From a virus, in the IMG/VR virus record IMGVR_UViG_3300036846_000903, positions 1 to 31,645 of that record: 31,645 bases of DNA; one strand, 5' to 3'. This document shows, piece by piece, positions 1 through 31,645 of the stretch. How positions within the stretch are numbered: position 1 is the first letter of the stretch; each line of letters opens with the position of its first letter. The position numbers and the translations under genes are program-made. The notes under the pieces were generated by a model, which saw nothing but the letters and a program-made list of their open reading frames with translations, did not search any database and had not been told where the DNA came from.

Positions 1-127
1 CGGAAATTCCGGGCGCCGTTGAAAGGGATCGCCATGCCTGCCGGCCGACCTCGCAAATCGCCCGAACTGCACGTCGTACAGAGCGGCGGCAAGCCGCGCA
101 AGGAGGTGCGCGATCGCGAGGCGGTCA
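1..127. repeat. Terminal direct repeat, left copy (circular-assembly overlap)
   Basis: These bases are identical to 31519-31645. The repeat starts in the spacer before the small terminase and ends inside that gene, so it is not a natural-looking boundary. The length of 127 is a common maximum k-mer size in short-read assemblers, which suggests an uncollapsed overlap of a circular contig. The unique genome would be 31,518 bp. Confidence 0.95.
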
Positions 128-519
128 CGCCCAGGTCGGCGTCGATCAAGGGCGTTCCCAGCCGGTTGAATGCCGGTCAACGGGCGGTCTGGCGCGATCT
201 CGCGCGGTCTCTGCCGGCCGGCCTGGTGCAGGTGTCCGACGCCGTGCGGTTCGAGGAGCTGGTGATTGCGGTCGACGCGCAGCGCCAACTGCTCGCCGAG
301 TTCAACGCAGCCGGCCGCGGCCAGGCCTGGCGCAAGGGGCGCGGCCGCACGCCTGCCGGGATCTCGGCCTACCTGCGCGAGCTCGCCACGCTGTCCGCTC
401 GCGTGCGCGTGCTCTGCGCCGAGTTCGGCATGACGCCCCAGGCACGAACGCACGTGCAGATGCCGCGCAAGCCCGAGGCGGTCGATCCACTCGATTCTTT
501 TCTGGCGCCGAAGAAATGA
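34..519 (+). CDS. terS: Terminase small subunit (P27 family)
   Basis: A 161-residue protein that should recognise the packaging site and deliver phage DNA to the large terminase. It opens with MPAGRPRKS, a basic stretch typical of P27-type small terminases, followed by a helical body (roughly residues 45-140) containing a conserved-looking YLRELATLSARVR segment, and ends in DPLDSFL. I chose ATG at 34 because AAGGGA lies a few bases upstream; a TTG at 19 would add five residues without a better ribosome site. It lies just after the HNH gene on the circle and overlaps the next gene by ATGA. The large terminase is two genes downstream, an unusual separation. The assignment rests on composition, size and context. 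Confidence 0.85.
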   Translation: MPAGRPRKSPELHVVQSGGKPRKEVRDREAVTPRSASIKGVPSRLNAGQRAVWRDLARSLPAGLVQVSDAVRFEELVIAVDAQRQLLAEFNAAGRGQAWRKGRGRTPAGISAYLRELATLSARVRVLCAEFGMTPQARTHVQMPRKPEAVDPLDSFLAPKK

Positions 520-1418
520 ACGCAAGCCGTATCTCGCCCGAGGATGCGCAGGAGTTCACCGAGGCACTCGCGCAAAGCGTCGGGGCGTCCTGGCGCCAGA
601 TCGCGCTCGCAAAGCGCATGGGTGTGCCCAAGGCGTTGGGGTTGAGCGTCGACCAGTGGGTGACGTCCAAACTTGGCGGCTATGTGCGCATGGCTGTCGA
701 GGACCGGCGCCAGGCGGTCCAGGAACTCAAGGCGGAAGGATTGTCGAACCGCGAGGCGGCAGAGGTGCTAGGCATTGATGCACACACTGTTCGTCGAGAC
801 GTAGATGGGGCAAATGCCCCACCCACGAACGGGTTCTCCCACGAAGAGGCTTCCCCCGCTGGGGCAAATGCCCCACCTGCCGATTTGCCGCGCGAGTCGC
901 TGCCCCACGTCGCAAACAACACAGGCAACAACGAGTGGTACACGCCGCCGGAAATCATTGAGGCAGCGCGCGAAGTGATGGGCTCGATCGATGTCGACCC
1001 GGCCTCGTGCGCGACCGCGAACGAGTGGATCAGGGCGACAACATACTTCGACGCGCAAACGGACGGGCTCGTGCAGCGCTGGAACGGCAAGGTCTGGCTC
1101 AACCCGCCCTACGCCCAGCCACTTCTCACGGACTTCGTCGACGCGCTGCTCGCGAAGGTCAAGGCGCAGGAGGTCTCGCAGGCTTGCGTGCTCGTGAACA
1201 ACGCAACGGAGACCCGCTGGTTTCAGGCTCTCGGGGCCGCCAGCGTTGCTGTCTGCTTCATGGAAGGCCGCGTGCGATATATCGATGCGAGCGGCAGTCC
1301 TGCGCTGACGCCGTTGCAGGGCCAGGCCGTTGCCTATTTCGGGCTGGAGGTGCCTACCTTCTGCAAGGTATTCGCCCGTTTCGGCCTGGTCGGCATGCTG
1401 AAAAGGCCGCGGCCATGA
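516..1418 (+). CDS. Phage DNA N6-adenine methyltransferase (Dam family) with N-terminal HTH
   Basis: A 300-residue two-part protein. Residues 1-95 form a helical DNA-binding region with a resolvase-like helix-turn-helix at about 73-94 (LSNREAAEVLGIDAHTVRRD). Residues 138-290 match the phage Dam family: NNEWYTPPE at 138-146, DPAS at 161-164, and the catalytic WLNPPY at 194-199. The family transfers methyl groups from S-adenosylmethionine to adenine N6. The two halves are joined by a linker in which GANAPP occurs twice, encoded by two identical palindromic repeats. The gene starts in an ATGA overlap with terS and ends in an ATGA overlap with a putative nuclease gene. Phage Dam genes usually lie in early or accessory regions, so a place between terS and terL is odd. 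Methylation activity is well supported; the target sequence cannot be read. Confidence 0.88.
   Translation: MNASRISPEDAQEFTEALAQSVGASWRQIALAKRMGVPKALGLSVDQWVTSKLGGYVRMAVEDRRQAVQELKAEGLSNREAAEVLGIDAHTVRRDVDGANAPPTNGFSHEEASPAGANAPPADLPRESLPHVANNTGNNEWYTPPEIIEAAREVMGSIDVDPASCATANEWIRATTYFDAQTDGLVQRWNGKVWLNPPYAQPLLTDFVDALLAKVKAQEVSQACVLVNNATETRWFQALGAASVAVCFMEGRVRYIDASGSPALTPLQGQAVAYFGLEVPTFCKVFARFGLVGMLKRPRP
806..822. repeat. Palindromic repeat, copy 1
   Basis: The core GGGGCAAATGCCCC (807-820) is an inverted repeat, GGGGCA and TGCCCC around AA. The 17-base unit is repeated exactly at 860-876, 54 bp away and in the same reading frame, so both encode the GANAPP linker peptide. A third half-site (TGCCCCAC) lies near 901-909. 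Confidence 0.85.
860..876. repeat. Palindromic repeat, copy 2
   Basis: Exact second copy of the 806-822 unit, with core palindrome 861-874. It lies in the low-complexity linker between the HTH and methyltransferase halves of the enzyme. Confidence 0.85.
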
Positions 1419-2035
1419 GCTATGCGGATTGCCTCGAGACGGAAGGGAAGTCGCGCGCCATCCTCGAGCCGCTGTTTGATTTCCATTCGGGCAATCGCAT
1501 GGTCGTCCTCGAGCACTGCGCCGCCGCGGCGCAACTTCAACGCATCGCCGACCTCGCTATCGGCCGTCGTACCCATCGCGGGGCGGTCACGCTCGAACTG
1601 AAAGCAGAGGAACATTTCAGGGGGAATCTATTCATCGAGGAATTTTCGAACCTCAACATTGGATCCGCTGCGGCGCGCGACGCGCATCCTTCTCGTCTCG
1701 GCTGGGGCCTGACTTGTGGCGCCGATGTGCTCGCCTATCACTTTCTGGACAAGAACCGTCTGTATCTGGTCGGATTCCAGGCGCTCCTCGTGTATGTCTT
1801 TGGCTGCAAGCCCAATGGGCAAATTCGTGCAGGCGACTACTCGCTGCAGGCGCAGCGCAAACACCGGCAAATGAACAATACCGTCGGCCTGTTGGTCAGC
1901 GTCGCGCACTTGCAGAAGGCGCTCGGCGAACAGTTTCAATTTCTAGAGGTTGGCTCACTACTCGATGCCGAATACATCGGGCGCGCGCTAGGTGAAACCG
2001 CCGCAGAATCCCATGTCTCCGCGCGGGGACGGTGA
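1415..2035 (+). CDS. Putative PD-(D/E)XK nuclease-like protein
   Basis: A 206-residue protein without a confident named family. The middle carries a pattern expected of the PD-(D/E)XK nuclease fold: Asp46 in RIADLAIG, then Glu61-Leu-Lys63 in VTLELKAEE (D-x14-ExK), followed by NLFIEEFSN (71-79) and an alternating hydrophobic block GWGLTCGADVLAYHF (96-110) and RLYLVGF (115-121). Such folds cut DNA with a divalent metal held by the D and E. The gene overlaps the methyltransferase stop by ATGA and its end overlaps the start of terL, so all are probably co-translated. Together with the methyltransferase it looks like a compact restriction-modification-type pair, but that function is inference. It could instead act in packaging or DNA repair. 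Confidence 0.6.
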   Translation: MSYADCLETEGKSRAILEPLFDFHSGNRMVVLEHCAAAAQLQRIADLAIGRRTHRGAVTLELKAEEHFRGNLFIEEFSNLNIGSAAARDAHPSRLGWGLTCGADVLAYHFLDKNRLYLVGFQALLVYVFGCKPNGQIRAGDYSLQAQRKHRQMNNTVGLLVSVAHLQKALGEQFQFLEVGSLLDAEYIGRALGETAAESHVSARGR

Positions 2036-3725
2036 CCGCGTTACCGACTACGCCCGCGACGTCCAGGCCTGCTCGATTGTCGCCGGCCCCTACGTCCGCG
2101 CCGCCTGCGCCCGCCACCTGGCCGACCTCGAGGCTGCCGCGGCCCGCGGTCTGTACTTCGATCCGGGCCGCGCCGAGAGGGTCTTCGACTTCTTCCGCAC
2201 GATCCTGCGCCTGAACGCCGGCCAGTTCGAGGGCCAGCCCTTCGAGCTGTCCGCCTGGCAGGCCTTCGTCCTGGGCTCGATCTTCGGCTGGGTAGATGCC
2301 GACGGCGCGAGGCGCTTCCAGGTCGCCTACATCGAGACGGGCAAGGGCAACGGCAAGTCGCCGCTGGCCGCTGGTGTCGGGCTGTACATGATGATCGCGG
2401 ACCAGGAGCCGCGCGCCGAAATCTACGCCGCGGCGTCCAAGCGCGACCAGGCGATGATCCTGTTCCGCGACGCGGTGGCCATGCGCGACCAGTCGCCGGC
2501 GCTGTGCGGGCGCGTGCACAAGATGGGCGGCGACAACCCGTGGAACCTGTCGTTCGCGGGTTCCTTCTTCCGCCCGATCGCCTCCGACGACAATCAGTCC
2601 GGGCCCCGCCCGCACTGTGCGCTCGCCGACGAGCTGCACGAACACCGCGACGGGCTCGTCCTCGAGATGCTCCGAGCGGGCTTCAAGGGCCGACGCTCGC
2701 CGCTGCTGTTCATCACGACGAACGCCGGGTTCGACCGCGCGACCGTCTGCTGGGAGTACCACGAGAAGGCGCGCAAGGTGGCCGAGGGCACCCAGGAAGA
2801 CGACCGATTCTTCTCGTACGTGTGCGCCCTCGACCGCGGCGACGCGCCCTTCGACGACGAGGCGTGCTGGGCGAAGGCCAATCCGAACCTGGGCATCTCG
2901 ATTCAGCCGCGATACCTGCGCGACCAGGTCGCCGAGGCGCGCACGATGCCCTCGAAGGAGTCGCTGGTGCGCCGGCTGCACTTCTGCGAATGGACGGACG
3001 CTGCTTCTCCGTGGATCTCGGGCGAGGCCTGGCGCGGCTGCGAGGTCGAGCCCGAGGGCGAGGTGCTCGAGTGGCTGGCGCCTGCGGGCGAGCCGCTCAC
3101 GCTCGCGGTGGACCTGTCGCTCACGACCGACCTCTCGTCGCTGGCTGCGGCGTCCGACGTCTGGGCGGGCCGCATGATGCGCGTGGCCGCCGAATTCTGG
3201 ACGCCGGCCGACACACTGCGCGAGCGTGCGGACCGCGACGCGATCGACTACCCGCTCTGGGTGCGCCAGGGCTTCCTGCACGCGGTGCCGGGTTCCACGC
3301 TCGACTATCTGCCCATCGCGCAACGCATCGCCGCGATCGCCGCGCAGCGCACGGTGCGCGCGGTCGTTTTCGACCGCTACAAGATGCCGTACCTGCGCCG
3401 GGCGCTCGACGAGCTGGGGGTGTCCCTACCGTTGCTGGAACACCCGCAGACGTTCGTGCGACTCGCCTCGTCCGCGCTGTGGATGCCCGAGTCGATCAAC
3501 CAGATCGAGCGCGCCGTCCTCGAGGGCCGCGTCTCCTTCTGGCGCAACCCGGTGCTCACCTGGTGCGCCGCATCGGCCGTCGTGACGTCGGACGAGCAGG
3601 GCTCGCGCATCTTCTCCAAGCGCAAGTCGACGGGCCGCATCGATGGCCTGGTGGCCGCCACCATGGCCGTCGGGGCGCTGCGGGCGCCGACGCCTGCCTT
3701 CGACGTGGCGGCCTGGATCGGCTGA
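2013..3725 (+). CDS. terL: Terminase large subunit (HK97 type)
   Basis: A 570-residue DNA packaging motor and nuclease. The ATPase half has a Walker A-like GKGNGKS at 110-116 preceded by AYIET, and a Walker B with catalytic acid in ALADE at 203-207. The coupling region includes LLFITTNAGFDR. The nuclease half begins near LAVDLSLTTDLSSL, whose aspartates fit the RNase H-like metal site, and continues to IDGLVAATMAVG near the C-terminus. These are features of Terminase_1/HK97-type enzymes. I prefer ATG at 2013; a GTG at 1992 would add seven residues and neither has a clear ribosome site. Both overlap the end of the upstream nuclease gene. A strong hairpin follows the stop codon at once. Confidence 0.95.
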   Translation: MSPRGDGDRVTDYARDVQACSIVAGPYVRAACARHLADLEAAAARGLYFDPGRAERVFDFFRTILRLNAGQFEGQPFELSAWQAFVLGSIFGWVDADGARRFQVAYIETGKGNGKSPLAAGVGLYMMIADQEPRAEIYAAASKRDQAMILFRDAVAMRDQSPALCGRVHKMGGDNPWNLSFAGSFFRPIASDDNQSGPRPHCALADELHEHRDGLVLEMLRAGFKGRRSPLLFITTNAGFDRATVCWEYHEKARKVAEGTQEDDRFFSYVCALDRGDAPFDDEACWAKANPNLGISIQPRYLRDQVAEARTMPSKESLVRRLHFCEWTDAASPWISGEAWRGCEVEPEGEVLEWLAPAGEPLTLAVDLSLTTDLSSLAAASDVWAGRMMRVAAEFWTPADTLRERADRDAIDYPLWVRQGFLHAVPGSTLDYLPIAQRIAAIAAQRTVRAVVFDRYKMPYLRRALDELGVSLPLLEHPQTFVRLASSALWMPESINQIERAVLEGRVSFWRNPVLTWCAASAVVTSDEQGSRIFSKRKSTGRIDGLVAATMAVGALRAPTPAFDVAAWIG

Positions 3726-3782
3726 AAAACAAGCTTGCTTGTCGTCTACCAGCGACGCTGACAAGCAAGCAATATTGTTTTT
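3725..3782. terminator. Hairpin after terL: bidirectional terminator or operator
   Basis: An 11-bp perfect inverted repeat, GCTTGCTTGTC at 3733-3743 and GACAAGCAAGC at 3760-3770, surrounds a 16-base loop. It is flanked by AAAAACAA (3725-3732) and TTGTTTTT (3775-3782), which are also complementary, so either strand ends in a T-rich tail. The stretch is strikingly AT-rich for this genome. It could end terL transcription. The repeated TTGCTTGT boxes could also be the operator of the ribbon-helix-helix gene starting 16 bases further on. Confidence 0.65.
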
Positions 3783-3797
3783 GATAGACTGTCGGGC

Positions 3798-4103
3798 ATG
3801 ACGACCCGAAAGCACGTCTCCGCGCGCCTGCGCTCGATCGCCCGCGCCGCCCACGACCAGCAACCCCGCCGCGCGCACGCGGCGCCCGCCATGAACGCCA
3901 CGAAGACGCCGCCGGAGCCGCCCGTCGCCCGCCTCGAGGTGCCGGTGCAGCGCGAGGTGCGCCGCGCCTGCACGTTCCAGCTGCCCGAGTCGCTGCTCGA
4001 GGCGCTGGCCGAGGCGGCTTTCCGTGAATCCCGGGCGCGGCGCTCGCGGGTGACGCAGGTCGAGATCCTCGAGCGTGCGCTGCGGGCCGAGCTCGGGATC
4101 TAG
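3798..4103 (+). CDS. Ribbon-helix-helix (CopG/ParD-like) DNA-binding protein
   Basis: A 101-residue protein with a basic, disordered N-terminal half (MTTRKHVSARLRS onward). The C-terminal segment from about residue 54 has the shape of a ribbon-helix-helix domain: a short strand ACTFQLPESLL, a helix LEALAEAAFRES, a turn with RRSRVTQ, and a second helix VEILERALRAEL. Such proteins bind operators as dimers and often repress their own gene. The symmetric TTGCTTGT boxes just upstream are a natural candidate site. No toxin gene is adjacent, so an antitoxin role is unsupported. It stands alone between terL and the minus-strand moron, ending 10 bases from the convergent gene. Confidence 0.7.
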   Translation: MTTRKHVSARLRSIARAAHDQQPRRAHAAPAMNATKTPPEPPVARLEVPVQREVRRACTFQLPESLLEALAEAAFRESRARRSRVTQVEILERALRAELGI

Positions 4104-4113
4104 CAGGGACGGA

Positions 4114-4353
4114 TCAGACCCCGCGGCCGCCGCTTCCTTGCAGCAACTGCTTGCCTCGCGGCGAGTACAGCGGGATGAGGTGGCCGCCGCATTCGCGGCA
4201 GACCTTGCGGCGCGCGCTGATGCGCCAGCAGGAATAGATCAAGCCCGGCACGAGGAAGCAGCACCAGAGAATCAGCTCGATGATGATGGAGCCCGGGGTA
4301 AAGCTCTTCGGCGTGCTCGTGCTGCCGCACTGGGTGCAGATGGTGGAAGACAT
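4114..4353 (-). CDS. Small zinc-ribbon membrane protein (moron)
   Basis: A 79-residue protein read against the structural genes. It has CTQC at residues 6-9, one hydrophobic segment at about 22-43 (SIIIELILWCCFLVPGLIYSCW), and CREC at 52-55. Two CxxC knuckles bracketing a membrane segment resemble the split zinc ribbon of LITAF-like proteins, in which the two halves meet at the membrane face. It follows the secreted-protein gene at 4362-4718 by 8 bases, so the two probably form one leftward transcript. The place, strand and independence from virion genes fit a lysogenic-conversion gene expressed from the prophage. The exact job is unknown. Confidence 0.72.
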   Translation of the reverse strand: MSSTICTQCGSTSTPKSFTPGSIIIELILWCCFLVPGLIYSCWRISARRKVCRECGGHLIPLYSPRGKQLLQGSGGRGV

Positions 4354-4361
4354 TCGGCGTC

Positions 4362-4718
4362 TCAGTTCATCTTGAATTGGCCCCAGGAGAACCGCCCGAC
4401 GGCCTTGCCGGTTCGATAGTCCAGGACGTCGAAGCTGATGGCCTTGTCGGCGCCCACCATCAAGAAGCAGTTCACGGTTCGCACGAAGTTTTCCTTCGCG
4501 TCGAAGGGCATGTTGAAGAACGTCGGTCCAACGACGACTTTGGGCTCCCTGCCGGGCTTCCAGTCCAGGTCGTAGAGCACATCGAGTTTCTGGGCCTGCT
4601 TCAGCTTGGTCCGGCATCCTTCGAAACGGGCGTTTTCATCCGCAGACACGGCGTGTGCAGCGGTGGCCGTGCCGAGGGCCATGAAGACGAAAACGATGAA
4701 GCGGCGAAGAGAGGTCAT
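4362..4718 (-). CDS. Secreted protein of unknown function (moron)
   Basis: A 118-residue protein starting MTSLRRFIVFVFMALG, a classic signal peptide with a likely cleavage after AHA (residues 21-23). The mature part of about 95 residues contains two cysteines (FEGCRTK and VNCFLMVG), which could form a disulfide, and strands such as PKVVVGPTFFNM and ISFDVLDYRTGKAVGRF. I do not recognise the family. It is the first gene of a two-gene leftward unit inserted between packaging and capsid genes. It probably acts in the host periplasm during lysogeny. The ribosome site is weak for the ATG at 4718. Confidence 0.72.
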   Translation of the reverse strand: MTSLRRFIVFVFMALGTATAAHAVSADENARFEGCRTKLKQAQKLDVLYDLDWKPGREPKVVVGPTFFNMPFDAKENFVRTVNCFLMVGADKAISFDVLDYRTGKAVGRFSWGQFKMN

Positions 4719-4924: not shown

Positions 4925-7042
4925 GTGCCGGCCGTGGCCGACCGTAGCACCGTTCCGGACCTCGTCCACGTTGAAAAACGCGGCGGCCCCGCCGTCGCTT
5001 CGACGCCGGGCGCCGTCGACACGAACGCGATCCGCTTTCGCGTCAGCAACGAGGACGTCGACGCCTTCGGCGACATCGTCGTCCAGGCCGGGCTGACCTT
5101 TCCGCCGACGCTGCCCGCCGTCGCCGACCATTCCCCCTCGCTCGAGGCGAGCGTCGGCGAGTGGCGCTCGGTCGAGCGCGCGGGCCCCGAGACCTTCGCC
5201 ACGCTGCGCCTGCTGCCCGCGGGCGTCTCGCGCATGGCCGACCTCGTGCGCGCGCTGCATCAAGGCGGCTATCCGCTCGCGAGCTCGGTGCATTTCGACA
5301 TCCAGCGCGCCGACATCGAGCCGCTCATGCGCACCGATGCCAACGGCCACAAGACCCGCACGGGCTCGCGCTACCTGCGCGGCCTCGTGCGCGAGGTCTC
5401 GATCACGCAATTTCCCGCGAACCCGGCGGCCGTGGCCGTCGCGCGTTCGCTGGGATTCAACGACGCCGAGGTGGCCGCGCTGTCGCGCCCCGAGCCCGCC
5501 CCGGCGTCCATCGCTCGCACCTCTGCGGTTGCCGGTGCGCCTGCCTCTCGAGGCCTCCCCATGGACTTTTCCGAACAGATCGCGGCCGCGCAGGCCGCCC
5601 ACGAGGCCGCGCAGGCGGCGCTGGCCACCGCCGGCACGAATTTCGAGCACGACGCGAGCGAGGCGAACTTGGCCGCCGTGCAGCGTGCCACGACCGAGGT
5701 CGACCAGGTCAGCGAGCGCCTGGTGATCCTGCGCAATGCGCAAACCGCGGCCGCGCGCCGGGCCGCCGCCGCGCCGGCGCCCGCGCCGGCCGCGCCCGTG
5801 ACCGCGGTCTCGCGCGCGGTGGCCACCGTCGCCGGCACGCCGCCGGCCTCGCCAGCGATCATCGCGCACCGCACGACGGCCGCCGACATGGAGCCCCGCG
5901 GGACGCGTCTCGCGCGCCTCATCATGGCCGCGGGTGTCGCGCGCTCGCGGCGAATCTCGGTCGAGCAGGCCGTCGTCGAGCAACTCCCGAACGATGCCGA
6001 GATGATCCGCATCGCGCGCTCGGCGGCCAACGTCGCCGACACGACGACCGCCGGCTGGGCGGCCGAGCTCGTGCGCACCGAGATTCGCGCGATGCTCGAC
6101 TCGACGCAGATGCCCAATTCCATCTGGCCGGCGCTCTCGGCGGCCGGCACCTCGCTCAACTTCGCCGGCGCGCACTCCGTCCTCATCCCGCAGATGAACA
6201 TCGGCACGACCGCGCTCGGCGCATGGGTCGGCGAGGGCGGGATGATCCCCGTCGTGCAGGGGACGTTCTCGTCGAAGCGCCTGTATGCCTACAAGCTCGG
6301 CGGCGTCATCCCGATCACGAAGGAGCTGCAGCGCATGAGCGATCCGGACGCGGTCGCCACGATGCGCGAGATGCTCCGGCAATACCTGTCGAACCTGCTC
6401 GACTCGTCGATGATCGACACCTCGGCCGAGATCACGGGAGTGCGGCCGGCGGGCCTGCTGAACGGCGTGGCGCCAATCACCGGCACTGCGGGCGGCGGGT
6501 ATGAAGCACTCCGCGGTGACCTGGAAGCCGTGACGAACGCCTTCACGGCCGCGGGCGTGGGCTCGCGTCCGGTGCTGCTCGTGCCACAAAGCAAGCAATT
6601 CCGGCTCAAGACGATGGTCAACGCCCTCGGGCAACTCGTCTTCCCCAACTTCGAAAACGAGGCGCTCGGCTTCCAGGTCATCCCGAGCCAGTTCGTGCCG
6701 CCCACGACGGCGATCGCGGTCGCCGCCGAGAAGTTCGCCAGCGCCATCGACCCGCTCGAGTTCGACACGAGCGAAGAGGCGACGCTGTCGATGGCCAACG
6801 CCGACGCGACCGCGCCGACGCAGGCCGGCGCCGCACCAGGCGGCGGCGCGCTCGGCACGCAGCGCCAGGTCGTCCCGGACGGCGGCATTCCCGTCTCGGG
6901 AGGCACGGGTGCCTCGACCACGGGCTATACGGCCGTGTCGATGTATCAAGCCTGGAGCGTGGCACTTCGACTCGTCATTCCGGCGAGTTATGGCGTGACC
7001 CGCGCCGGCGCCGTGCAAGAGATCACGGGGATCACGTGGTGA
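4925..7042 (+). CDS. Prohead protease fused to HK97-fold major capsid protein
   Basis: One 705-residue frame joins two normally separate proteins. Residues 35-180 match the HK97 prohead protease: FRVSNEDVDAFGDIV, His69 in AVADHS, Ser120/121 in LASSVHF, and the hallmark REVSITQFPANP at 156-167. Residues 213-275 are a helical delta-like domain (MDFSEQIAAAQAAHE onward), followed by an Ala/Pro linker. Residues 310-705 are the capsid core, with TALGAWVGEGGMIPV, AYKLGGVIPITKEL and TGVRPAGLLNG. The start appears to be GTG at 4925 or 4934, since no in-frame ATG precedes the protease motifs. An internal ATG at 5561, with GAGG about 8 bases upstream, could yield a separate capsid protein. Confidence 0.9.
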   Translation: MPAVADRSTVPDLVHVEKRGGPAVASTPGAVDTNAIRFRVSNEDVDAFGDIVVQAGLTFPPTLPAVADHSPSLEASVGEWRSVERAGPETFATLRLLPAGVSRMADLVRALHQGGYPLASSVHFDIQRADIEPLMRTDANGHKTRTGSRYLRGLVREVSITQFPANPAAVAVARSLGFNDAEVAALSRPEPAPASIARTSAVAGAPASRGLPMDFSEQIAAAQAAHEAAQAALATAGTNFEHDASEANLAAVQRATTEVDQVSERLVILRNAQTAAARRAAAAPAPAPAAPVTAVSRAVATVAGTPPASPAIIAHRTTAADMEPRGTRLARLIMAAGVARSRRISVEQAVVEQLPNDAEMIRIARSAANVADTTTAGWAAELVRTEIRAMLDSTQMPNSIWPALSAAGTSLNFAGAHSVLIPQMNIGTTALGAWVGEGGMIPVVQGTFSSKRLYAYKLGGVIPITKELQRMSDPDAVATMREMLRQYLSNLLDSSMIDTSAEITGVRPAGLLNGVAPITGTAGGGYEALRGDLEAVTNAFTAAGVGSRPVLLVPQSKQFRLKTMVNALGQLVFPNFENEALGFQVIPSQFVPPTTAIAVAAEKFASAIDPLEFDTSEEATLSMANADATAPTQAGAAPGGGALGTQRQVVPDGGIPVSGGTGASTTGYTAVSMYQAWSVALRLVIPASYGVTRAGAVQEITGITW

Positions 7043-7182
7043 TCGGCGTCGCGCTGCTCGTCATCGCGCTCGTGCTGTTCGCGCTGGCGGCGGCCGGCGT
7101 GGTTCACCAACGCGTGCAGTTCGTGCCGCTCGGCCTCGCGTTCTGGGTACTGGCGGTACTGCTTCGTGCCTGGCCGCCGTGA
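7039..7182 (+). CDS. Small membrane protein
   Basis: A 47-residue frame starting at a GTG that overlaps the capsid stop codon (GTGA). It has two hydrophobic segments, IGVALLVIALVLFALAAAG at about 2-20 and FVPLGLAFWVLAVLL at about 28-42, with a short polar turn (HQRVQ) between them. The coupling to the capsid gene and clean membrane pattern favour a real gene. I do not recognise a family. A holin-like hairpin is a possibility but unproven; a membrane role in head assembly is another. Confidence 0.55.
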   Translation: MIGVALLVIALVLFALAAAGVVHQRVQFVPLGLAFWVLAVLLRAWPP

Positions 7183-22759: not shown

Positions 22760-24118
22760 ATGACCCTCTCCCGAGCCCGCGGCGTCACCATCGTCGAGCG
22801 CAGTGGCCGCTTCACCTTGCGCCTGCGCCATGACCAGCTCACCGCCGCCACCGGCAAGAAGTACTACTTCGCGACCTTCGAGACCGAGGACGAAGCCGTC
22901 ACCTACGGCAACCGGCTGGTGGCACTCCTCGACCAGGGCGTTGTGCCGCCCGAGTTCGCCAGCGCGAGCCAACAGGCGACGCCCATCGACGCTAACCCGC
23001 CCGTCCAAGGCATCGTGCGCGAGTTCCTGAACAGCGCCTCCAACCTGACCGCCTCGGATTCGCTACTGCTCGGCTCGGAGCAGTTCCTCAACGATCTGCA
23101 CCACGCGCGACTGGCCGAGATCACCTTCGCCTGGGCCGAGGCCTACGTGCGTCGGCTGAAAGGCCGGCAGCTCTCGCCTTCGACCGTACGGATCCGCGTC
23201 GGCGCCCTCGGCCGCGTCCTGGATTGGTATACACGCCGCACGACGCCCAAAGGCGCAATGCCGATCGCCAACGCGATGCGCCTGCTGCCCAAGGGTTACT
23301 CCACGTACAACCCGAACGAGGCCGAGGCCGTCAAGGCCAAAGGCCTGCCCGTGCCGCGCAGTGCGCAACGCGATCGTCGCCTCGCGCCCGACGAGGAGCA
23401 CCGCATCGAACGGGCGCTTGCCGGCGAAAAGCTCGAGGGCAAGCAAGCCGCGCGGCGCTCGCCCGACGATGCCCACCTGCGCGTGCTGTTTCGCTTCATC
23501 GTCGAGACGGGCTGCCGCCTGCGCGAGGCCTACCGGGCCCGCATCGAGCATCTCGACTTCGAGCGCGGCCTCATCCACGTCCAGGGCTCGAAAGGCCGCG
23601 CCGGCCAGATCAAGCCGCGCATCGTGCCCATGAAGCCCGAGCTGCGCGGCGTGCTCCAGGCCTATCTGGGCGAGCGCCGCGAAGGCCTCGTCTTCCCGTA
23701 TTGGAACGGCCAGGACGACGAGTCGACGCTGCGCCAGGTGACGCTCAAGCTCACCCGCAACTTCGCGGGCCTCTTCGCCTACGCGGACTGTGAGGGAATC
23801 ACCGAGCACGACCTGCGCCACGAGGCGACCTGCCGCTGGGTGACGCTGCGCCATGCGCGCACCGGGGCATGGCTGTGGTCCGACACCGAGATCTGCCGCA
23901 TCATGGGCTGGACGTCGACGCGCATGCTCATGCGCTATGCGAGCCTGCGCGGCGAGGATCTCGCCGATCGCCTGGCGCTCGCCTACGCCGCGCCCGAGCC
24001 GACCCCGGGTGCTCCGCGCGTAGCCGTCAACGTGGCGCCGGCGGCAGCGTCACCGGCTGGCGGCGCGGTCGTCCACGCTTTCGCGGCACCGAAGCCGCGC
24101 CGTCCGTCGACGCGCTGA
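22760..24118 (+). CDS. int: Tyrosine integrase
   Basis: A 452-residue site-specific recombinase. The N-terminal part (to about 80) is a likely arm-binding domain; 82-200 is a SAM-like core-binding domain (FLNSASNLTASDSLLLGSEQFLN in two parts). The catalytic domain has Arg253 in ETGCRLREA, Lys278 in GSKGRAG, His350 and Arg353 in EHDLRHE, Trp384 in the histidine/tryptophan position (IMGW), and the nucleophile Tyr393 in LMRYASL. All active residues are present. The last 50 residues are an Ala/Pro-rich extension. It overlaps the convergent excisionase gene by 92 bp. The ribosome site before ATG 22760 is poor. It integrates the phage at a tRNA-Cys gene, as judged from attP. Confidence 0.95.
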   Translation: MTLSRARGVTIVERSGRFTLRLRHDQLTAATGKKYYFATFETEDEAVTYGNRLVALLDQGVVPPEFASASQQATPIDANPPVQGIVREFLNSASNLTASDSLLLGSEQFLNDLHHARLAEITFAWAEAYVRRLKGRQLSPSTVRIRVGALGRVLDWYTRRTTPKGAMPIANAMRLLPKGYSTYNPNEAEAVKAKGLPVPRSAQRDRRLAPDEEHRIERALAGEKLEGKQAARRSPDDAHLRVLFRFIVETGCRLREAYRARIEHLDFERGLIHVQGSKGRAGQIKPRIVPMKPELRGVLQAYLGERREGLVFPYWNGQDDESTLRQVTLKLTRNFAGLFAYADCEGITEHDLRHEATCRWVTLRHARTGAWLWSDTEICRIMGWTSTRMLMRYASLRGEDLADRLALAYAAPEPTPGAPRVAVNVAPAAASPAGGAVVHAFAAPKPRRPSTR

Positions 24119-24347
24119 TCGCGGACGGCGCCGGCGGTGCACGCCGCTGCGCCGCCGCGGCGAGCGCCGCGCTGTTCAAGTGCGCGACGAGGGCGCTGCG
24201 CGGGAAGCGCCAGTCGTGCCCGAACTTCAGGCCGGGCAACTCGTGCCGGCGGGCGCGCTCGCGCACGCCCCGCGCGGTGCATCCGAGCATCGCGGCCACC
24301 TGGTCGACCGTCAGGATGGGATCATCGGCGGGGATGGGCTCGGACAT
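24027..24347 (-). CDS. xis: Excisionase-like HTH protein with AT-hook tail
   Basis: A 106-residue protein. Residues 10-56 are a MerR/excisionase-type helix-turn-helix: ILTVDQVAAMLGCTARGVRERARRHELPGLKFG, seen as three segments, then WRFPRSALVAHL with the conserved W-R-F/I-P-x-x-x-L. The C-terminal tail has PRKRGRPRRQP (88-98), an AT-hook-like minor-groove binder around the RGRP core. I start at ATG 24347 rather than an upstream start because this begins the conserved part. It is the last gene of the leftward early operon and runs antisense into the integrase 3' end. It may bend attP DNA for excision or act as a regulator. Confidence 0.75.
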   Translation of the reverse strand: MSEPIPADDPILTVDQVAAMLGCTARGVRERARRHELPGLKFGHDWRFPRSALVAHLNSAALAAAAQRRAPPAPSAISASTDGAASVPRKRGRPRRQPVTLPPAPR

Positions 24348-24988
24348 GGCGGGGCTCCTACAGAACCATGCGCAGGGGAAAGGAACGAACACCGTCGATG
24401 CTCGGCGCGCGCTGTTCGGCGAGCTCGTGGTCGAACTGGCTGCAGTCCGCGTCCTTCTTCACGGCGATGCGCGTGACGAGACAGAAGACCTCGACGCCGC
24501 CCTCGCTCACGCCTTCCCACACGCGTGCCGGCACGCCGTTGACTTCCACGACGCGCTCGGTGCTCTCGATGGTGATCTTCATGGCCGAGTCTTCCTTCCA
24601 GGAGGATCGGGAGATCCTTCGCCTCGGCGGGCAGGCCGGCGTCGCGCCGGTGCGCATGCGGACGCGTCAGAAAGGGGCATGCGCACGCCGCATAGCGGGC
24701 GCAGTCCCGGTGCGAGGGCGGCTCGGGCGCCGTGCGCGTGATGCAGGCCAGCGGCCCCACGACGAAGGTCTTCCAGGCGCCGAGCGGCTCGCCGCACACC
24801 CAGCAGCGGTGCTCGCGCACGGCACGGGCGTACTTGTCGCCATCGATGGCGCGGTGGTCGGGTGCGCCGTCGACCCAGCCGACGAACCAGGGCACCGGGT
24901 AGCCGCGGCGGTCGAGGGGCAGGCGCGCCAGGCGCGCGGGCAGGGGCGGCAGCTCGGGCCGCAGGGGACGGGGCAGGGTGGCGTTCAT
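24311..24988 (-). CDS. Conserved phage early protein, C-terminal frame uncertain
   Basis: The clearly coding part is the first 130 or so residues from ATG 24988: LDRRGYPVPWFVGWVDGAPDHR, HRCWVCGEPLGAWKTFVVGP and SHRDCARYAACACPFLTRP. The paired cysteines (CWVC, DCARYAACAC) suggest a metal site. I recognise the pattern as a phage early family but know no function. After about residue 135 the composition becomes Arg-rich and overlaps the whole of the next gene (24358-24582), which looks genuinely coding. In another frame the sequence from about 24616 gives PDPPGRKTRP and a stop at 24579 in an ATGA overlap with that gene. A 1-base shift near 24610-24645 would restore this tidy ending. Confidence 0.6.
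   Translation of the reverse strand: MNATLPRPLRPELPPLPARLARLPLDRRGYPVPWFVGWVDGAPDHRAIDGDKYARAVREHRCWVCGEPLGAWKTFVVGPLACITRTAPEPPSHRDCARYAACACPFLTRPHAHRRDAGLPAEAKDLPILLEGRLGHEDHHREHRARRGSQRRAGTRVGRRERGRRRGLLSRHAHRREEGRGLQPVRPRARRTARAEHRRCSFLSPAHGSVGAPPCPSPSPPMIPS
24358..24582 (-). CDS. Conserved small phage early protein
   Basis: A 74-residue protein, MKITIESTERVVEVNGVPARVWEG onward, with a strand-rich middle (GGVEVFCLVTRIAVKKDAD) and an ending SFPLRMVL. The pattern (I/V-E-x-T-x3-V-x-V-N-G-x-P-A-R-x-W-E-G ... PLRM-x-L) is one I associate with a recurrent phage early-gene family without known function. ATG 24582 has GGAAGG upstream and forms an ATGA overlap with a stop in the frame of the upstream gene's expected end. 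Confidence 0.7.
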   Translation of the reverse strand: MKITIESTERVVEVNGVPARVWEGVSEGGVEVFCLVTRIAVKKDADCSQFDHELAEQRAPSIDGVRSFPLRMVL

Positions 24989-25281
24989 GGAGTCATCCCG
25001 TGGTCGGGGCGCTCGTGCTCGGGCCCGGTGCGCGGCTCGCCGAATTCGACGCCCGCATCGGGCCCGAGGGCGTCTTCGATGATCGCGCGGGCGCACAGCG
25101 AGGCCAGGCCCTTGAACGCGTCGAACACGCCGGGCAAATGCGCGACCGGCTTGGCGAGCGTGAGCATCGGGATCGCCCCGTCCATGGTGTCCGGGCGCGC
25201 GAGCACCGCGTGCAGGACGTCGCCCTCGTCGCGGATGGCGACGCGGCCGACCGCGGGCAATCTCATGGTGTTCGAGTCCAT
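24985..25281 (-). CDS. Conserved phage early protein
   Basis: A 98-residue protein without a named function. It contains GDVLHAVLARPDTMDGAIPMLTLAKPV in adjacent blocks and ends REPRTGPEHE-like (GEPRTGPEHERPDHG). GAGGA lies about 9 bases before ATG 25281; a second ATG five codons later is possible. It overlaps the next gene's start (24988) by ATGA. The place among recombination-type early genes suggests a DNA-related accessory role, but nothing in the sequence proves it. Confidence 0.7.
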   Translation of the reverse strand: MDSNTMRLPAVGRVAIRDEGDVLHAVLARPDTMDGAIPMLTLAKPVAHLPGVFDAFKGLASLCARAIIEDALGPDAGVEFGEPRTGPEHERPDHGMTP

Positions 25282-25292
25282 CGGCTCATTCC

Positions 25293-25511
25293 TCAGTGGG
25301 CTTTGTCGAGATCACCCAAGGTCAACGTCTCGCGCTTTGCGGCCAGCACCTCGAGCGCGGCCTGGTCGCGCACCACGACCAGCAATATCGCCGTCGTCGT
25401 CGAGCCCTCGGGAAGTGGGATGGCGGCGACCTCGCCCACGCGCAGCCGGTCGATCTCCGCGAGCGTCCACGCCGAGAGCAGGAACCCGTCGACCATTTCC
25501 ATCATCAGCAT
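25293..25511 (-). CDS. Hypothetical early protein
   Basis: A 72-residue protein, MLMMEMVDGFLLSAWTLAEIDRL onward, with a possible strand-helix pattern (TTTAILLVVVRDQAALEVLAAKR). No family is recognised. Its start shares a base with the stop of the large early gene 25511-26629, so it is probably co-translated with it. Confidence 0.65.
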   Translation of the reverse strand: MLMMEMVDGFLLSAWTLAEIDRLRVGEVAAIPLPEGSTTTAILLVVVRDQAALEVLAAKRETLTLGDLDKAH

Positions 25512-26629
25512 CAGGGTTCCCCCGGGTGGAACTTCGCCTGCCAGGCGGCCGACAGCGCGTCGAGCGCCGCGGCGCCCAGGCCCGCCGTGCGCGCCTCATC
25601 GAGCACGAGGGCGGCGAGCTCGGAGTCCGTCGCGCGCTCGATCTCGATCTGGTAGTCCGCGAGCGATCGAGGCTCGGGCGCCGAACCGGCCGCGGCGGGG
25701 CCTGGCGGCGTCGTGACTGCGTTTTCCGCGCCGGACTGGGACGCGGGTGGCTCCGAAGCCTTCGCGGCGCGTTTGCGAGGAGCCTTGGGTTCGTCGACGG
25801 CCGGCTGTGCTTTAGTCGCACCGCTGTGCTCAGGCAGCACAGGCGCGGGCTCGAACCAGTCCGAGACGACCGAGATGCCGTCACGCAGGCTCGCGTACAC
25901 CCGGCGCAAGCCCACGACCTGCGCGGGCTGGATCGCGTCGAGCCGGCGCTGGATGCGCGCCTCGATTTGCTCGCGCGTCACGCCGAACTGCGCGAAACCC
26001 TTGAGCATTTTCTTCATGCCCTCGGGCGAGACGTCGGCTTTCGCCGTCAGCGTCTTCTCGCACTCGGCGAGCGCCGTGTCGATGATGTAGCGCGGAATGA
26101 TCGCTTCGAGGCACGAGCGCTTGCGGCGCTGGCCGGCGTTCGCGACGAGCTCGTAGATGTCGCGCTCGTCGGTCACCGCATACCCGCCGCGCTTCGTGTC
26201 GCGCCAGTGGCGCACCGGGAACTGGCGTTCTTCGTACGACGTCGCCTCGAGGTCCCAGGCGAAGGCGACGCACTCGCTCCAGCCGTCGTGGCGGAAGACT
26301 TCCTTGATGCCCGAGGCCATGTTGCCCCAGCTGCGCGCGACCGCTTCGACCAGGCGGATGGAGGCGCCGCGGATGTCCGAGCCGCTCCTCGCATACTGGT
26401 ATGCGGCATCCTCGGCCAGGCCGACGTGCTGGCAGTCCCGCAGGATGGCGTCGAGCGCAGCCACCGCGTTGCGCGGGTTCGCGCGCGCGACCAGCGTGCG
26501 CGCCTGGATCTCGGCGACGGCGCGCTGGGTTTCGACCTGGAGAAGCGCGCCACCAGCGGCGGGCGCGGTGACGACACGCGGCGGCGCCTCGAGGATCTCG
26601 CCCGTCGTGGCGTCGATGCTTTTCGCCAT
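25511..26629 (-). CDS. Phage early protein, possible recombination/ssDNA-annealing factor
   Basis: A 372-residue protein, first gene of the leftward early operon. Residues 40-245 form the conserved part: NAVAALDAILRDCQHVGLAEDAAY, SGSDIRGASIRLVEAVARSWGNM, GWSECVAFAWDLEATSYEERQF and RSCLEAIIPRYIIDTALAECEKTL in separate blocks. The G-x-S-I-R-L-x-E-x-x-A-R-x-W-G-N block is frequent in a phage early family that I suspect serves recombination, but it is not a clear RecT, Erf or Red-beta match. Residues 280-340 are a basic, disordered linker (APRKRAAKA), then an acidic helical tail. ATG 26629 is supported by GGAAGCGAGG just upstream; longer starts lack coding signal. Confidence 0.72.
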   Translation of the reverse strand: MAKSIDATTGEILEAPPRVVTAPAAGGALLQVETQRAVAEIQARTLVARANPRNAVAALDAILRDCQHVGLAEDAAYQYARSGSDIRGASIRLVEAVARSWGNMASGIKEVFRHDGWSECVAFAWDLEATSYEERQFPVRHWRDTKRGGYAVTDERDIYELVANAGQRRKRSCLEAIIPRYIIDTALAECEKTLTAKADVSPEGMKKMLKGFAQFGVTREQIEARIQRRLDAIQPAQVVGLRRVYASLRDGISVVSDWFEPAPVLPEHSGATKAQPAVDEPKAPRKRAAKASEPPASQSGAENAVTTPPGPAAAGSAPEPRSLADYQIEIERATDSELAALVLDEARTAGLGAAALDALSAAWQAKFHPGEP

Positions 26630-26684
26630 GTTTCGCCTCGCTTCCTTTCGTGCGCCTTGTCGGGACTGGCAGGGCGGGGCGAAA

Positions 26685-26714
26685 AGTATAGGTACGCTTT
26701 CCTGATGCCGGCAA
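26685..26714 (-). promoter_or_regulatory. Candidate promoter of the leftward early operon
   Basis: On the minus strand, TTGCCG (26714-26709) and TATACT (26690-26685) are separated by 18 bases, giving four and five of six consensus matches. It points to the gene starting at 26629, about 50 bases downstream. The 26630-26816 spacer is free of supported genes. Confidence 0.5.
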
Positions 26715-26816
26715 GAGCGGGGCAGGAATGCTATACAAGCGGGTGGGAATTGCACTGCCGTGTGCGTAAGGCCGTACCCGCGGCGGCGGGCCGAGTCAAC
26801 CGTGCGTCAACTTTTT

Positions 26817-27167
26817 TCAGGACGCGGAGGCCGCGGGGTTCGCGTTTCGGATGTCGGCCAGCGCCTGGAGTATGCCGCGCAGCCCTGCCTGGACGGCGAG
26901 CAACTCCTGCGGGGTGAGCGCGAAGACGGCCTCGCGCTGCACGAGGGGAAAGGGCCAAGCCACGGGCGGACCGATCTCCGGCAGCGGGTAGCCGGTCAGG
27001 CGCTTAATTCGCACGAGCTGGCGAAACGACGGGTCGTGGTTGCCACCTTCCCAGTGCGAGACGTTGGCCTTCGTGACGCCCATTTCGTCGGCCAGCTGCG
27101 ACTGCGTCCAGTGCACGTACTTGCGCGCCGCGCGCACCCATTGGCCGATCGAATCCACATCCCCCAT
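26817..27167 (-). CDS. XRE-family phage repressor (CI-like), no peptidase domain
   Basis: A 116-residue regulator. Residues 8-60 are a canonical XRE helix-turn-helix (WTQSQLADEMGVTKANVSHWEGG, in two pieces, then PSFRQLVRIKRLTGYPLPE). Residues 80-116 form one helical segment (ALTPQELLAVQAGLRGILQAL) that may dimerise. There is no LexA/S24 autocleavage domain, so induction cannot follow the lambda CI route. It diverges from a Cro-like gene across an 87-bp region with a palindromic operator, which is the layout of an immunity switch. ATG 27167 lies in CCCCATGGGG. Confidence 0.83.
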   Translation of the reverse strand: MGDVDSIGQWVRAARKYVHWTQSQLADEMGVTKANVSHWEGGNHDPSFRQLVRIKRLTGYPLPEIGPPVAWPFPLVQREAVFALTPQELLAVQAGLRGILQALADIRNANPAASAS

Positions 27168-27559: not shown

Positions 27560-28438
27560 ATGACCGGCGGCATCGACTGGTTTCGCTGGCATCACGGCAC
27601 CGTGACGGATCAGAAATTTGTGCTCGTGGCCAGACGTGCGGGCGCGACGGTCGCCGAGGTCATCGCGGTGTGGGCTTGCCTGCTCGAGGCGGCCTCCATG
27701 AACGAGGAATTGCGTGGCGCGCTAGGAGGCGCGCCGGACTTCGAGGCGATGGACTGCGCCTTGGGGTTGGCCGACGGTCGCACTGCCGCAATCTTCGACG
27801 CCATGCAGTCCCGCGGCCTGGTCGACGGGTTCATGCAAGTGGCGGCTTGGCCGAAGCGCCAGCCCGAGCGTGAGCGCGAAGGCGATCACAGCACGGAACG
27901 TGTGAGGGCGTTCCGTCAGCGGAAACGCCATGAAACGCCGCGAAACGCCATGGAACGCCAGGAAACACCTAGAGAAGAGGAGAGTAGAGAAGAGAATACA
28001 AATACCCCAAGCACTGGCGTGCTTGGTTGTGCTCGTCCTGCGGACGATCTCCCGCAGCTGACGCTTGTCGAGCAGGATCGAAAGCCGGCAAAGCGCAAAA
28101 CAGTCCCCGCCTGTCCGCACCAGGCCATCCTGGCGCTCTGGGCCGAGGTGCTGCCCGCGCTGCCGCAGCACGACGCCGAGCAGTGGCGGGGCACGCGCGC
28201 CGAACACCTGCGCGCGCGCTGGCGCGAGGCCGCCGCGTCCGGCCACTGGCATAGCGAGCAAGAGGGGCTCGCCTACTTCCGGCGCCTGTTCACCTGGGTG
28301 GGCGAGTCGCGCTTTCTCACCGGCCGGGAACACGCGCCCGGCCGGCGCCCCTTCTTCGCCGAGCTCGCCTGGGTCATCGCGCCGGACAACTTCGCGAAGG
28401 TCGTCGAAGGCAAGTACCACGACGATGTCGCCGCATGA
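27560..28438 (+). CDS. Replication initiator-like protein containing the origin
   Basis: A 292-residue early protein; AGGGGG precedes ATG 27560. Residues 1-105 resemble a winged-helix DNA-binding domain of phage replication proteins (IDWFRWHHGTVTDQKFVLVA, VIAVWACLLEAAS, and GLVDGFMQVAAWPKRQ). Residues 106-175 are charged and disordered and are encoded by iterons and an A/G-rich stretch. Residues 185-285 are a helical C-terminal domain (HQAILALWAEVLPALPQHD, WRGTRAEHLRARWREA, LFTWVGESRFLTGR) similar in layout to lambda O-type or DnaT-like proteins that hand DNA to a helicase loader. No separate helicase or loader is recognised nearby, so the host helicase is probably recruited. Confidence 0.78.
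   Translation: MTGGIDWFRWHHGTVTDQKFVLVARRAGATVAEVIAVWACLLEAASMNEELRGALGGAPDFEAMDCALGLADGRTAAIFDAMQSRGLVDGFMQVAAWPKRQPEREREGDHSTERVRAFRQRKRHETPRNAMERQETPREEESREENTNTPSTGVLGCARPADDLPQLTLVEQDRKPAKRKTVPACPHQAILALWAEVLPALPQHDAEQWRGTRAEHLRARWREAAASGHWHSEQEGLAYFRRLFTWVGESRFLTGREHAPGRRPFFAELAWVIAPDNFAKVVEGKYHDDVAA
27907..28005 (+). other. ori: Replication origin: five 10-bp iterons plus A/G-rich unwinding region
   Basis: Five head-to-tail 10-base units fill 27921-27970 exactly: GGAAACGCCA, TGAAACGCCG, CGAAACGCCA, TGGAACGCCA and GGAAACACCT. An inverted unit (GGCGTTCC) lies at 27907-27914. They are followed by about 35 bases of A/G- and A/T-rich DNA (27971-28005) within a very GC-rich genome. Iterons inside an initiator gene next to an easily melted stretch are the lambda ori design. 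Confidence 0.8.
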
Positions 28439-29959: not shown

Positions 29960-31117
29960 ATGGACGAGACCCCATCCCGCCACGGCTGCCCCGAGCCCAC
30001 GAAGTCGCCCCCGGCGGCGCCCGCACCTGGGCCGATGCCCAAGCCCAACATGGACGATCTGCCGCCGCGCCTGCGCTGCATCGACGGCGAGCTGGTCAAA
30101 CCCAACGGCCAGCCGATCTGGCTGCACGGGGTGAACTTCGGCAACTTCGACGAGGACGACGAGCAGGACTGCGTCCCCATCCACGGCATGGGCGCCAACG
30201 CGCTGCGCGAGGCCTTGCGCTACTGGGGCAAATGGGGAAGCGCTAGCCATCCGAACCCCGACTGCCGGGATATCGACTCGTTCGCGACCTTGAAGCGCGA
30301 GCCGATGCACCTCTGGCTCGGGCGCATCGGCTCGGCCGCGCAAAACGGCCTCTGGTCGATTCCCTTCATCGACTCCAATTGCGGCCAATCGGGCACGAAC
30401 CAGCCCGAGGACATTGCGTATTGCGACCCCTATGGGACGTGGGGCCCGGCCGGGCACAACTTCTACGTCGACCCCGCCATGCGGCGGATATTCGCGTGGA
30501 TCGTGTGGCCGGCCGTCGCCGCGAAGCTGCGCACCATGTCGCGCATTGCGATGCTCGAGCCTCACCCCGAGCCCGCGCATCGCCGCGACGAGTCATGGGC
30601 GCCGCTCGTGGCACAAACGCAGTGGGACTGCATCCAGGGCATTCGCTCGGTCGACCCCGACACCCCCATCCTCGTGGGGCCGCGCGAGGGCTACGACATT
30701 CGGCTGGTGGAGGAATGCCTGCTCGCGCTGCAGGCGCTCGGCCCCCTTGACCCGAACCTCGTCTTCACGGGCAACCTGCTCAACCAGTGGGTCGTCAACC
30801 CGACGCGCTTCGACAAGGGCCTGCAGCACCTTAAAGACCTGCAGGAGAAATATCGCGTGGCGGTGTTCGTGCAGCAGTTGAACCGCAACTCGAGCGAAGA
30901 CCCGGACCTCTCGCTGCTCAAGCGCGCGGTCGCCGCCATGCGCGAGGCGAAGGTCGGCTACACGATCTGGCAGTGGAAGCAGAACACCTCCAACCCGGGG
31001 AACATGGGCCTGCTTTACAAGACCGAGGACGGCTCGGGTTGGGTGGCCAAGCAGGGCGAGATCGACGTCCTGTCGGCCGATTGGAAGCAACCCGGTCCAT
31101 ACGTGAGTGTGACCTGA
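29960..31117 (+). CDS. GH5-like (clan GH-A) TIM-barrel protein, probably catalytically impaired
   Basis: A 385-residue protein with a near-perfect AAAGGAGG site 6 bases before ATG 29960. An ATG at 29876 would add 28 residues encoded by the tandem repeat and lacks such a site. Residues 38-375 follow the GH5 barrel: QPIWLHGVNFGNFD (51-64), NGLWSIPFIDSNCGQ (129-143), RIAMLEPHPEP (195-205) in the place of the NEP acid/base motif with Glu200, GIRSVDPDTPILVGP (227-241) and VGYTIWQWKQN (332-342) as strand 8. At strand 7, where the nucleophile Glu is expected, RVAVFVQQLN (299-308) has glutamines. The N-terminal 35 residues are Pro-rich and there is no signal peptide. It may bind glycans rather than cut them. 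Confidence 0.7.
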   Translation: MDETPSRHGCPEPTKSPPAAPAPGPMPKPNMDDLPPRLRCIDGELVKPNGQPIWLHGVNFGNFDEDDEQDCVPIHGMGANALREALRYWGKWGSASHPNPDCRDIDSFATLKREPMHLWLGRIGSAAQNGLWSIPFIDSNCGQSGTNQPEDIAYCDPYGTWGPAGHNFYVDPAMRRIFAWIVWPAVAAKLRTMSRIAMLEPHPEPAHRRDESWAPLVAQTQWDCIQGIRSVDPDTPILVGPREGYDIRLVEECLLALQALGPLDPNLVFTGNLLNQWVVNPTRFDKGLQHLKDLQEKYRVAVFVQQLNRNSSEDPDLSLLKRAVAAMREAKVGYTIWQWKQNTSNPGNMGLLYKTEDGSGWVAKQGEIDVLSADWKQPGPYVSVT

Positions 31118-31513: not shown

Positions 31514-31534
31514 GCGCGCGGAAATTCCGGGCGC
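31514..31534. repeat. Inverted repeat between HNH gene and terS
   Basis: GCGC, a mismatch, then CGGAA-A-TTCCG, a mismatch and GCGC form a 21-base near-perfect palindrome centred on 31524; its core is also bases 1-11 of the window. It lies just upstream of terS and could be part of the packaging-site (cos/terS-binding) region or a control site of terS. Confidence 0.45.
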
Positions 31535-31645
31535 CGTTGAAAGGGATCGCCATGCCTGCCGGCCGACCTCGCAAATCGCCCGAACTGCACGTCGTACAGA
31601 GCGGCGGCAAGCCGCGCAAGGAGGTGCGCGATCGCGAGGCGGTCA
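31519..31645. repeat. Terminal direct repeat, right copy
   Basis: Exact copy of bases 1-127, closing the circle. Annotation beyond 31518 duplicates the left end. Confidence 0.95.
31552..31645 (+). CDS. terS: Terminase small subunit, duplicate partial copy
   Basis: The first 94 bases of terS repeated by the circular overlap and cut by the end of the window. It is not a second gene. Its ATG corresponds to base 34. Confidence 0.93.
   Translation, partial: MPAGRPRKSPELHVVQSGGKPRKEVRDREAV

Follow-up and report, generated by a model that had tools for sequence, protein, structure and literature searches.

Among described systems, the closest to the gene pair reported here are the Type II restriction-modification (R-M) systems, with which it shares two adjacent and coupled genes, a methyltransferase of an adenine-modifying family, and a partner showing the PD-(D/E)XK fold and catalytic pattern. 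However, the pair is carried by a phage, its nuclease has no recognised restriction-enzyme relatives in the libraries searched and, within its family, the nuclease persists although its methyltransferase partners come from different families. Among viruses, R-M pairs are at work in giant viruses and chloroviruses, and the uses reported or proposed for them are the degradation of host DNA (chloroviruses) and the exclusion of other viruses (marseilleviruses) (PMC7253447). The R-M genes of chloroviruses and Marseilleviridae likewise comprise a virus-encoded methyltransferase with a neighbouring nuclease, but they belong to eukaryotic viruses and encode demonstrated enzymes (GATC in marseilleviruses), and their likeness to the pair described here carries no claim of sequence relation.

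Orphan phage Dam methyltransferases are usually regarded as solitary and as a means of evading host restriction. They have the same catalytic domain (PF05869; phrog_111) and also reside in phage genomes; here, on the other hand, a coupled nuclease-like gene comes directly after the Dam gene. In a survey of gut phages, most type II modification systems consisted of a methyltransferase without a restriction endonuclease (PMC10711547). Two further kinds of nuclease genes invite comparison. The HNH genes found beside HK97-type phage terminases also adjoin terS and terL, but they encode another fold, the genome considered here has an HNH gene of its own, and its PD-(D/E)XK protein goes with methyltransferases rather than with terminases. 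Homing endonucleases, I-Ssp6803I for example, share the PD-(D/E)XK fold (Z 7.9 against the model described below) and a small size, but the pair reported here lies next to no visible intron and its methyltransferase is a nearly constant neighbour. A literature search by title and abstract, covering few subscription papers, returned no description of this pair.

Genome and organization of the locus

The window, that is, the whole stretch of DNA analysed (31,645 nucleotides), corresponds to the viral record IMGVR_UViG_3300036846_000903. Its positions 1-127 recur exactly, on the same strand, at 31519-31645, a 127-bp direct terminal repeat, and the record is therefore read as a complete closed genome with a circle of 31,518 bp. 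The phage is temperate; its genome holds an integrase gene (22760-24118, plus strand; phrog_1, E 2e-32), together with a replication initiation gene (27560-28438). An open frame of 926 aa (24137-26917) has no PHROG match and may be a non-coding frame of GC-rich DNA.

On the closed circle the gene order is HNH-terS-methyltransferase-nuclease-terL, all on the plus strand. The HNH endonuclease gene (ORF bounds 30973-31506; phrog_144, E 4e-16) adjoins terS upstream. The small terminase gene is of the P27/Terminase_4 type (19-519, with a likely ATG at 34; PF05119, E 7.5e-7; phrog_83) and is followed by the genes for an adenine DNA methyltransferase of 300 aa (516-1418) and for a nuclease-like protein of 206 aa (1415-2035), which is assigned to the PD-(D/E)XK fold from a structural model and the conserved residues D46, E61, and K63. 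Next comes terL (2013-3725; PF03354 and PF20441, TerL_ATPase and TerL_nuclease; phrog_9, E 8e-139), for which the ATG at 2013 is a likelier start than the GTG at 1992, where the mechanical ORF opens. PHROG and Pfam assignments agree for terS, the methyltransferase, and terL, and the four open reading frames from terS to terL lie where the initial annotation had placed them.

These four genes all overlap. ATGA overlaps of 4 bp are found at 516-519, between terS and the methyltransferase gene, and at 1415-1418, where they confirm the coupling of the methyltransferase to the second protein, between terS and terL, that had been noted before; the stop codon of the nuclease gene falls within the 5' end of terL. 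A search of window positions 1-3800 for sigma-70 promoter-like sites returned none, and a promoter belonging to the cassette itself is thus not seen.

The methyltransferase

The first protein of the pair had been described as a Dam-family adenine methyltransferase with a fused helix-turn-helix (HTH), and this is borne out by a Dam domain at aa 138-260 (PF05869, E 3.5e-14; 53.3 bits against a curated cut-off of 28.1), an N-terminal HTH_23 domain at aa 61-94 (E 8e-7), and an NPPY motif. With 41.1 bits against a cut-off of 97.05, it stays below the NCBIfam equivalog TIGR01712 (phage N-6-adenine-methyltransferase) and is not filed there. Its catalytic region is 47% identical over 165 aa to that of the Dam enzyme paired with a relative of the nuclease in locus L056. 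The stretch linking the HTH and methyltransferase regions contains two perfect copies of the palindrome TGGGGCAAATGCCCCA, at window positions 806-821 and 860-875, where 0.01 would be expected by chance, and no other locus has it. Either an operator bound by the HTH or a mobile palindrome of small size could account for these copies.

A divergent nuclease-like protein

The 206-aa protein has no match in Pfam, PHROGs, NCBIfam, PADLOC, or the sequences of the PDB: the HNH families of Pfam and PHROGs do not match it, PADLOC has no model for its family, and the searches of PDB sequences gave chance matches only. No match was found either in a first scan of genome contigs, in a tblastn search of plasmids with the window protein, or in a tblastn search of annotated phages with this protein and its relatives. 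Stepwise searches assembled a family of 17 members, consisting of the window protein and 16 relatives (L002, with 59% identity, L034, L053-L060, L067, L068, L167/L168, and L175-L178). All 17 contain a D followed, about 9-22 residues on, by (E/D)-x-K. K63, E75, W97, and Y108 are invariant, E61 is replaced by D only in L060, and the D column shifts by one in some divergent members of the MAFFT alignment. The residues D46, E61, and K63 had thus been numbered correctly, and the pattern that they form is kept in all 16 relatives, with the substitution in L060.

A structure predicted with AlphaFold from two sequences only was unusable (pLDDT 38) and was discarded. The AlphaFold2 model from 11 sequences has a pLDDT of 78.2 and a pTM of 0.75; in it, D46 opens the strand 47-50, and E61 and K63 lie within the strand 57-65. 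Comparison with the PDB by VIA-align gave PD-(D/E)XK enzymes as leading matches, namely Eco15I (Z 8.6 over 109 residues), I-Ssp6803I (7.9), and NhoI (7.7), followed by RecU/PrfA (7.2), Hjc (7.0), HinP1I (6.8), DpnI (6.5), and PvuII (6.0), the best Z of 8.6 being of moderate strength and near the range where a common arrangement alone may be shared. Foldseek matches in the PDB were weak, with no match below E 0.001, and were led by the ST1444 Holliday junction resolvase, HinP1I, and I-Ssp6803I, with E-values of 0.027 and worse. Against viral models, 18 Foldseek matches reached E < 0.001, almost all of them being uncharacterised phage proteins. A PD-(D/E)XK fold, as had been suspected from the sequence, is probable for the second protein, since the model resembles such enzymes and places D46, E61, and K63 at the expected strands; the protein is presumed to be catalytically active.

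Pairing with methyltransferases of three families

The neighbourhood of the nuclease was counted in loci reached by nuclease queries only, leaving aside the window and L034, which was reached through its methyltransferase, and taking L054 and L055 as one. A DNA methyltransferase gene lies directly upstream of the nuclease gene in 13 of these 15 loci, which are related to varying degree and form about seven separate lineages by reading of the sequences, so that the count does not amount to 13 independent events. Where measured, the two genes overlap or lie within about 20 bp of each other, the gaps ranging from -20 to +15 bp. Adjacent methyltransferase and nuclease genes are hence kept together in the manner of Type II R-M systems and, as the initial idea of a cassette implied, the pair recurs outside terminases; a chance neighbourhood of the two genes is ruled out by the 13 loci.

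The methyltransferases belong to three families. Dam enzymes (PF05869) are the partners in L056, L057, L060, and L068, as well as in L054, where the assignment is based on the NPPY motif and the relation of this locus to L056. MT-A70 enzymes (PF05063) are found in L002 and L053, in L059, where the enzyme shows a DPPW motif and is 47% identical to that of L053, and in L175 by the DPPW motif only. N6_N4_Mtase enzymes (PF01555) are found in L167 and L168, with L177 and L178 assigned by similarity only; L167 and L178 are two loci within one genome. Although the L056 and L059 nucleases share 69% identity, their partners are a Dam and an MT-A70 enzyme, respectively. The N-terminal domains of these two methyltransferases share 41% identity, and this domain of about 135 aa, present in the methyltransferases of L056 (997-1905), L059 (3040-4104), L053 (3889-4914), and L002 (3955-4986), is thus mounted on unrelated catalytic domains of the Dam and MT-A70 types. 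With nucleases this similar beside different methyltransferase families, the nuclease has thus stayed in place and the methyltransferase core has been exchanged. Together, the upstream methyltransferase in 13 of the 15 loci, its origin from three families, and the swap between L056 and L059 argue for an R-M-like module.

The two remaining loci are L067 and L176. None of the three methyltransferase families was found in the 28-kb record of L067, which is possibly a fragment and for which the MT-A70 search had no positive control. The nuclease relative of L176 is located on a bacterial chromosome with no methyltransferase neighbour; read from the sequences, its gene (3931-4461, reverse strand) lies between ArgE-like and transporter-like genes. 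Other observations concern the surroundings of single pairs. In L175 (1134-4768), two methyltransferase genes of the DPPY and DPPW types stand in tandem and are followed by the nuclease gene and a DUF1441 gene. In L002, genes for a HigB-like toxin and an HTH antitoxin-like protein (6452-7114) are found near the methyltransferase-nuclease pair.

The terminase junction as a cargo site

The initial annotation had taken terS and terL to be normally adjacent, which is right for this terminase type: among 70 viral TerL relatives for which terS could be recognised, the two genes lie within 36 bp of each other in 61, and inserts of at least 370 bp are found in seven. A close relative, L082 (TerL 75% identical), has the order HNH-terS-terL with an empty junction. 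In L078 (TerL 74% identical), the junction is occupied by an ATGA-coupled gene of 328 aa with no family assignment; this insert (523-1509) contains repeated CxxC motifs. Other unrelated genes occupy the junctions of L110 (1079-1651), L153 (2456-3028), L115 (3277-3956), L132 (464-1110), and L143 (1805-3870), and none of the other junction inserts belongs to the window nuclease family. The terS/terL junction is thus an occasional cargo site.

The cassette itself differs in base composition from terL. Its GC content is 0.64 in the methyltransferase gene and 0.59 in the nuclease gene, against 0.705 in terL, and the corresponding GC3 values are 0.77, 0.68, and 0.925; the cassette looks acquired. 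Among the nuclease relatives, none was found at a terS/terL junction, and the methyltransferase-nuclease pairs scanned have no relative of the window TerL nearby. Most of the other pairs for which the flanking genes were read have replication, recombination, or helicase genes close by, and the nuclease gene of L175 lies just upstream of the DUF1441 gene. The terminase location of the pair is probably incidental, given that the relatives are found elsewhere, the HNH gene is in its usual place, L082 has no insert, and the base composition deviates. A role of the nuclease as a packaging stand-in for the HNH enzyme is also disfavoured because the HNH gene itself is present upstream of terS.

Possible functions of the pair

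The explanation preferred here, with moderate confidence, is that the pair forms a phage-borne R-M-like module, in which N6-methyladenine would mark self and the coupled nuclease would cut unmarked host or competitor DNA. According to the proposed mechanism, the methyltransferase would mark the phage genome with N6-methyladenine at sites that its N-terminal DNA-binding domain probably helps to select, and the translationally coupled PD-(D/E)XK protein would cut DNA that does not carry the mark, be it the host chromosome or the genome of a co-infecting phage. The module would have entered the terS/terL junction as cargo in a temperate phage and would probably be expressed along with the late genes. 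This explanation builds on the layout and overlap of the genes, their family and fold assignments, the kept catalytic pattern, the pairing with three methyltransferase families, and the deviating composition; it presumes both enzyme activities, the methylation sensitivity of the nuclease, its target DNA, and the timing. The nearly constant pairing of the nuclease with a methyltransferase, whatever the family of the latter, is best explained by a mark that controls the nuclease.

A modification/restriction-type cassette had been put forward in the initial annotation, and the modelled PD-(D/E)XK fold, the kept residues, and the recurring pairs are consistent with it, so that none of the three refuting outcomes named with it (a non-nuclease fold, homologues lacking the residues, genes never paired elsewhere) came true; the marking of phage DNA and an attack by the pair on competing or host DNA are plausible. 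The pair is R-M-like in anatomy, as known here from genes and models, and it is not classed among the Type II R-M systems, in which both enzymes recognise the same site and methylation blocks cleavage. Speaking against the module are L067 and L176, which have no adjacent methyltransferase. In addition, if a nuclease is conserved next to methyltransferases of differing families, the two enzymes do not necessarily recognise a common site, and the many nuclease relatives near replication genes would also fit a role in replication or repair. Both partners are small proteins, and that methylation by the one blocks cleavage by the other is a directly testable prediction.

The strongest alternative, somewhat unlikely, starts from these surroundings: the pair would serve the replication, recombination, or repair of the phage itself, with the second protein acting as a junction resolvase or a MutH-like methyl-directed nicking enzyme guided by the methylation of new phage DNA. 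Its standing comes from the relatives beside replication initiators, a beta-clamp-like gene, helicases, or a RusA gene, and from the presence of the resolvases RecU and Hjc among the fold matches. However, L002 already has a RusA-type gene close by, the window pair sits in the terminase operon and, whatever else is near, the constant link is with methyltransferases of three families.

A nature as a selfish mobile element, of the homing type or some other, is unlikely; in this view the cassette would have taken up residence in an essential, conserved operon, and its methyltransferase would protect the carrier. The vicinity of terminase genes is a frequent landing place for nuclease genes (PMC10448857), some insert is found in about one in ten of the related terS/terL junctions, the cassette has a lower GC content, and the homing enzyme I-Ssp6803I, with its PD-(D/E)XK fold, is the second best fold match. 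But the nuclease relatives are scattered over unrelated locations instead of gathering at a single target, and a methyltransferase gene precedes nearly all of them; the other junction inserts fall outside this family, and cleavage of the empty junction would have to be assumed.

Very unlikely is a modification-dependent nuclease that cuts DNA bearing m6A or another mark, the methyltransferase having a separate role. The fold matches include DpnI (Z 6.5), and the structures of Eco15I and NhoI were solved with methylated targets; yet such a nuclease would be expected to cut the DNA marked by its own coupled partner, and no modified-base reader domain is seen within its 206 aa. Finally, it is hardly credible that the pair acts in packaging, alongside the terminase, by marking the cos/pac site or cutting there, a role that the initial annotation had entertained from the position within the operon and that the overlaps with terS and terL and the DUF1441 neighbour of L175 would fit, since the packaging-type HNH gene is in place, close terminase relatives such as L082 do without the pair, and neither nuclease relatives at terS/terL junctions nor window-TerL relatives near the pairs scanned were found.

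Nuclease-like genes behind other phage Dam genes

Besides the window, a PD-(D/E)XK-like gene is often found next to phage Dam genes. Counting viral loci with a relative of the window methyltransferase, such a gene comes next downstream, usually overlapping, in 33 of 46, a rough figure given that several of the contigs are near-duplicates. The remaining loci comprise one with an HNH gene, one that is uncertain, and 11 with neither. The downstream genes were sorted from motifs by eye, except for group vi, into TPSDID...E (group i, 15 loci, which does not show the usual K), D.D...EI.GNLL..EWK (group ii, seven), PD...W.EAK (group iii, five), TDIDG...EGK (group iv, two), a VRR-NUC-like gene with an E-value of 0.12 (group v, one), PDDEXK_11 (group vi, two; PF20472, E 3e-12), and the window family (one). 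In profile comparisons, group i is related to groups ii and iv, and the other groups are not detectably related; the window nuclease appears unrelated to the nuclease-like genes behind other Dam enzymes, save for a weak 31% probability to group iii.

The 33 Dam genes with such a neighbour make the theme look general. Dam genes of Vibrio K300, Vibrio 1.185.O, BV57P1, HRTV-27, and BKO1-TP3 have no adjoining nuclease-like gene, so the pairing is common and not universal. If divergent PD-(D/E)XK genes that are missed by the libraries routinely follow the seemingly lone methyltransferases of phages, many of these enzymes are not orphans, and phages would possess means of their own to destroy the DNA of hosts or rivals. 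It is tentatively proposed, as a possibility short of an expectation, that phages may carry a large and unrecognised class of modular weapons, each composed of an adenine methyltransferase from one of several families and an interchangeable nuclease from one of several families. Many "orphan" phage methyltransferases would then be the self-protection half of such a weapon, and the mobile N-terminal DNA-binding domain may set its target. One of the recognisable nuclease genes downstream of a phage Dam gene is the PDDEXK_11 gene of L048, located at 5530-6087.
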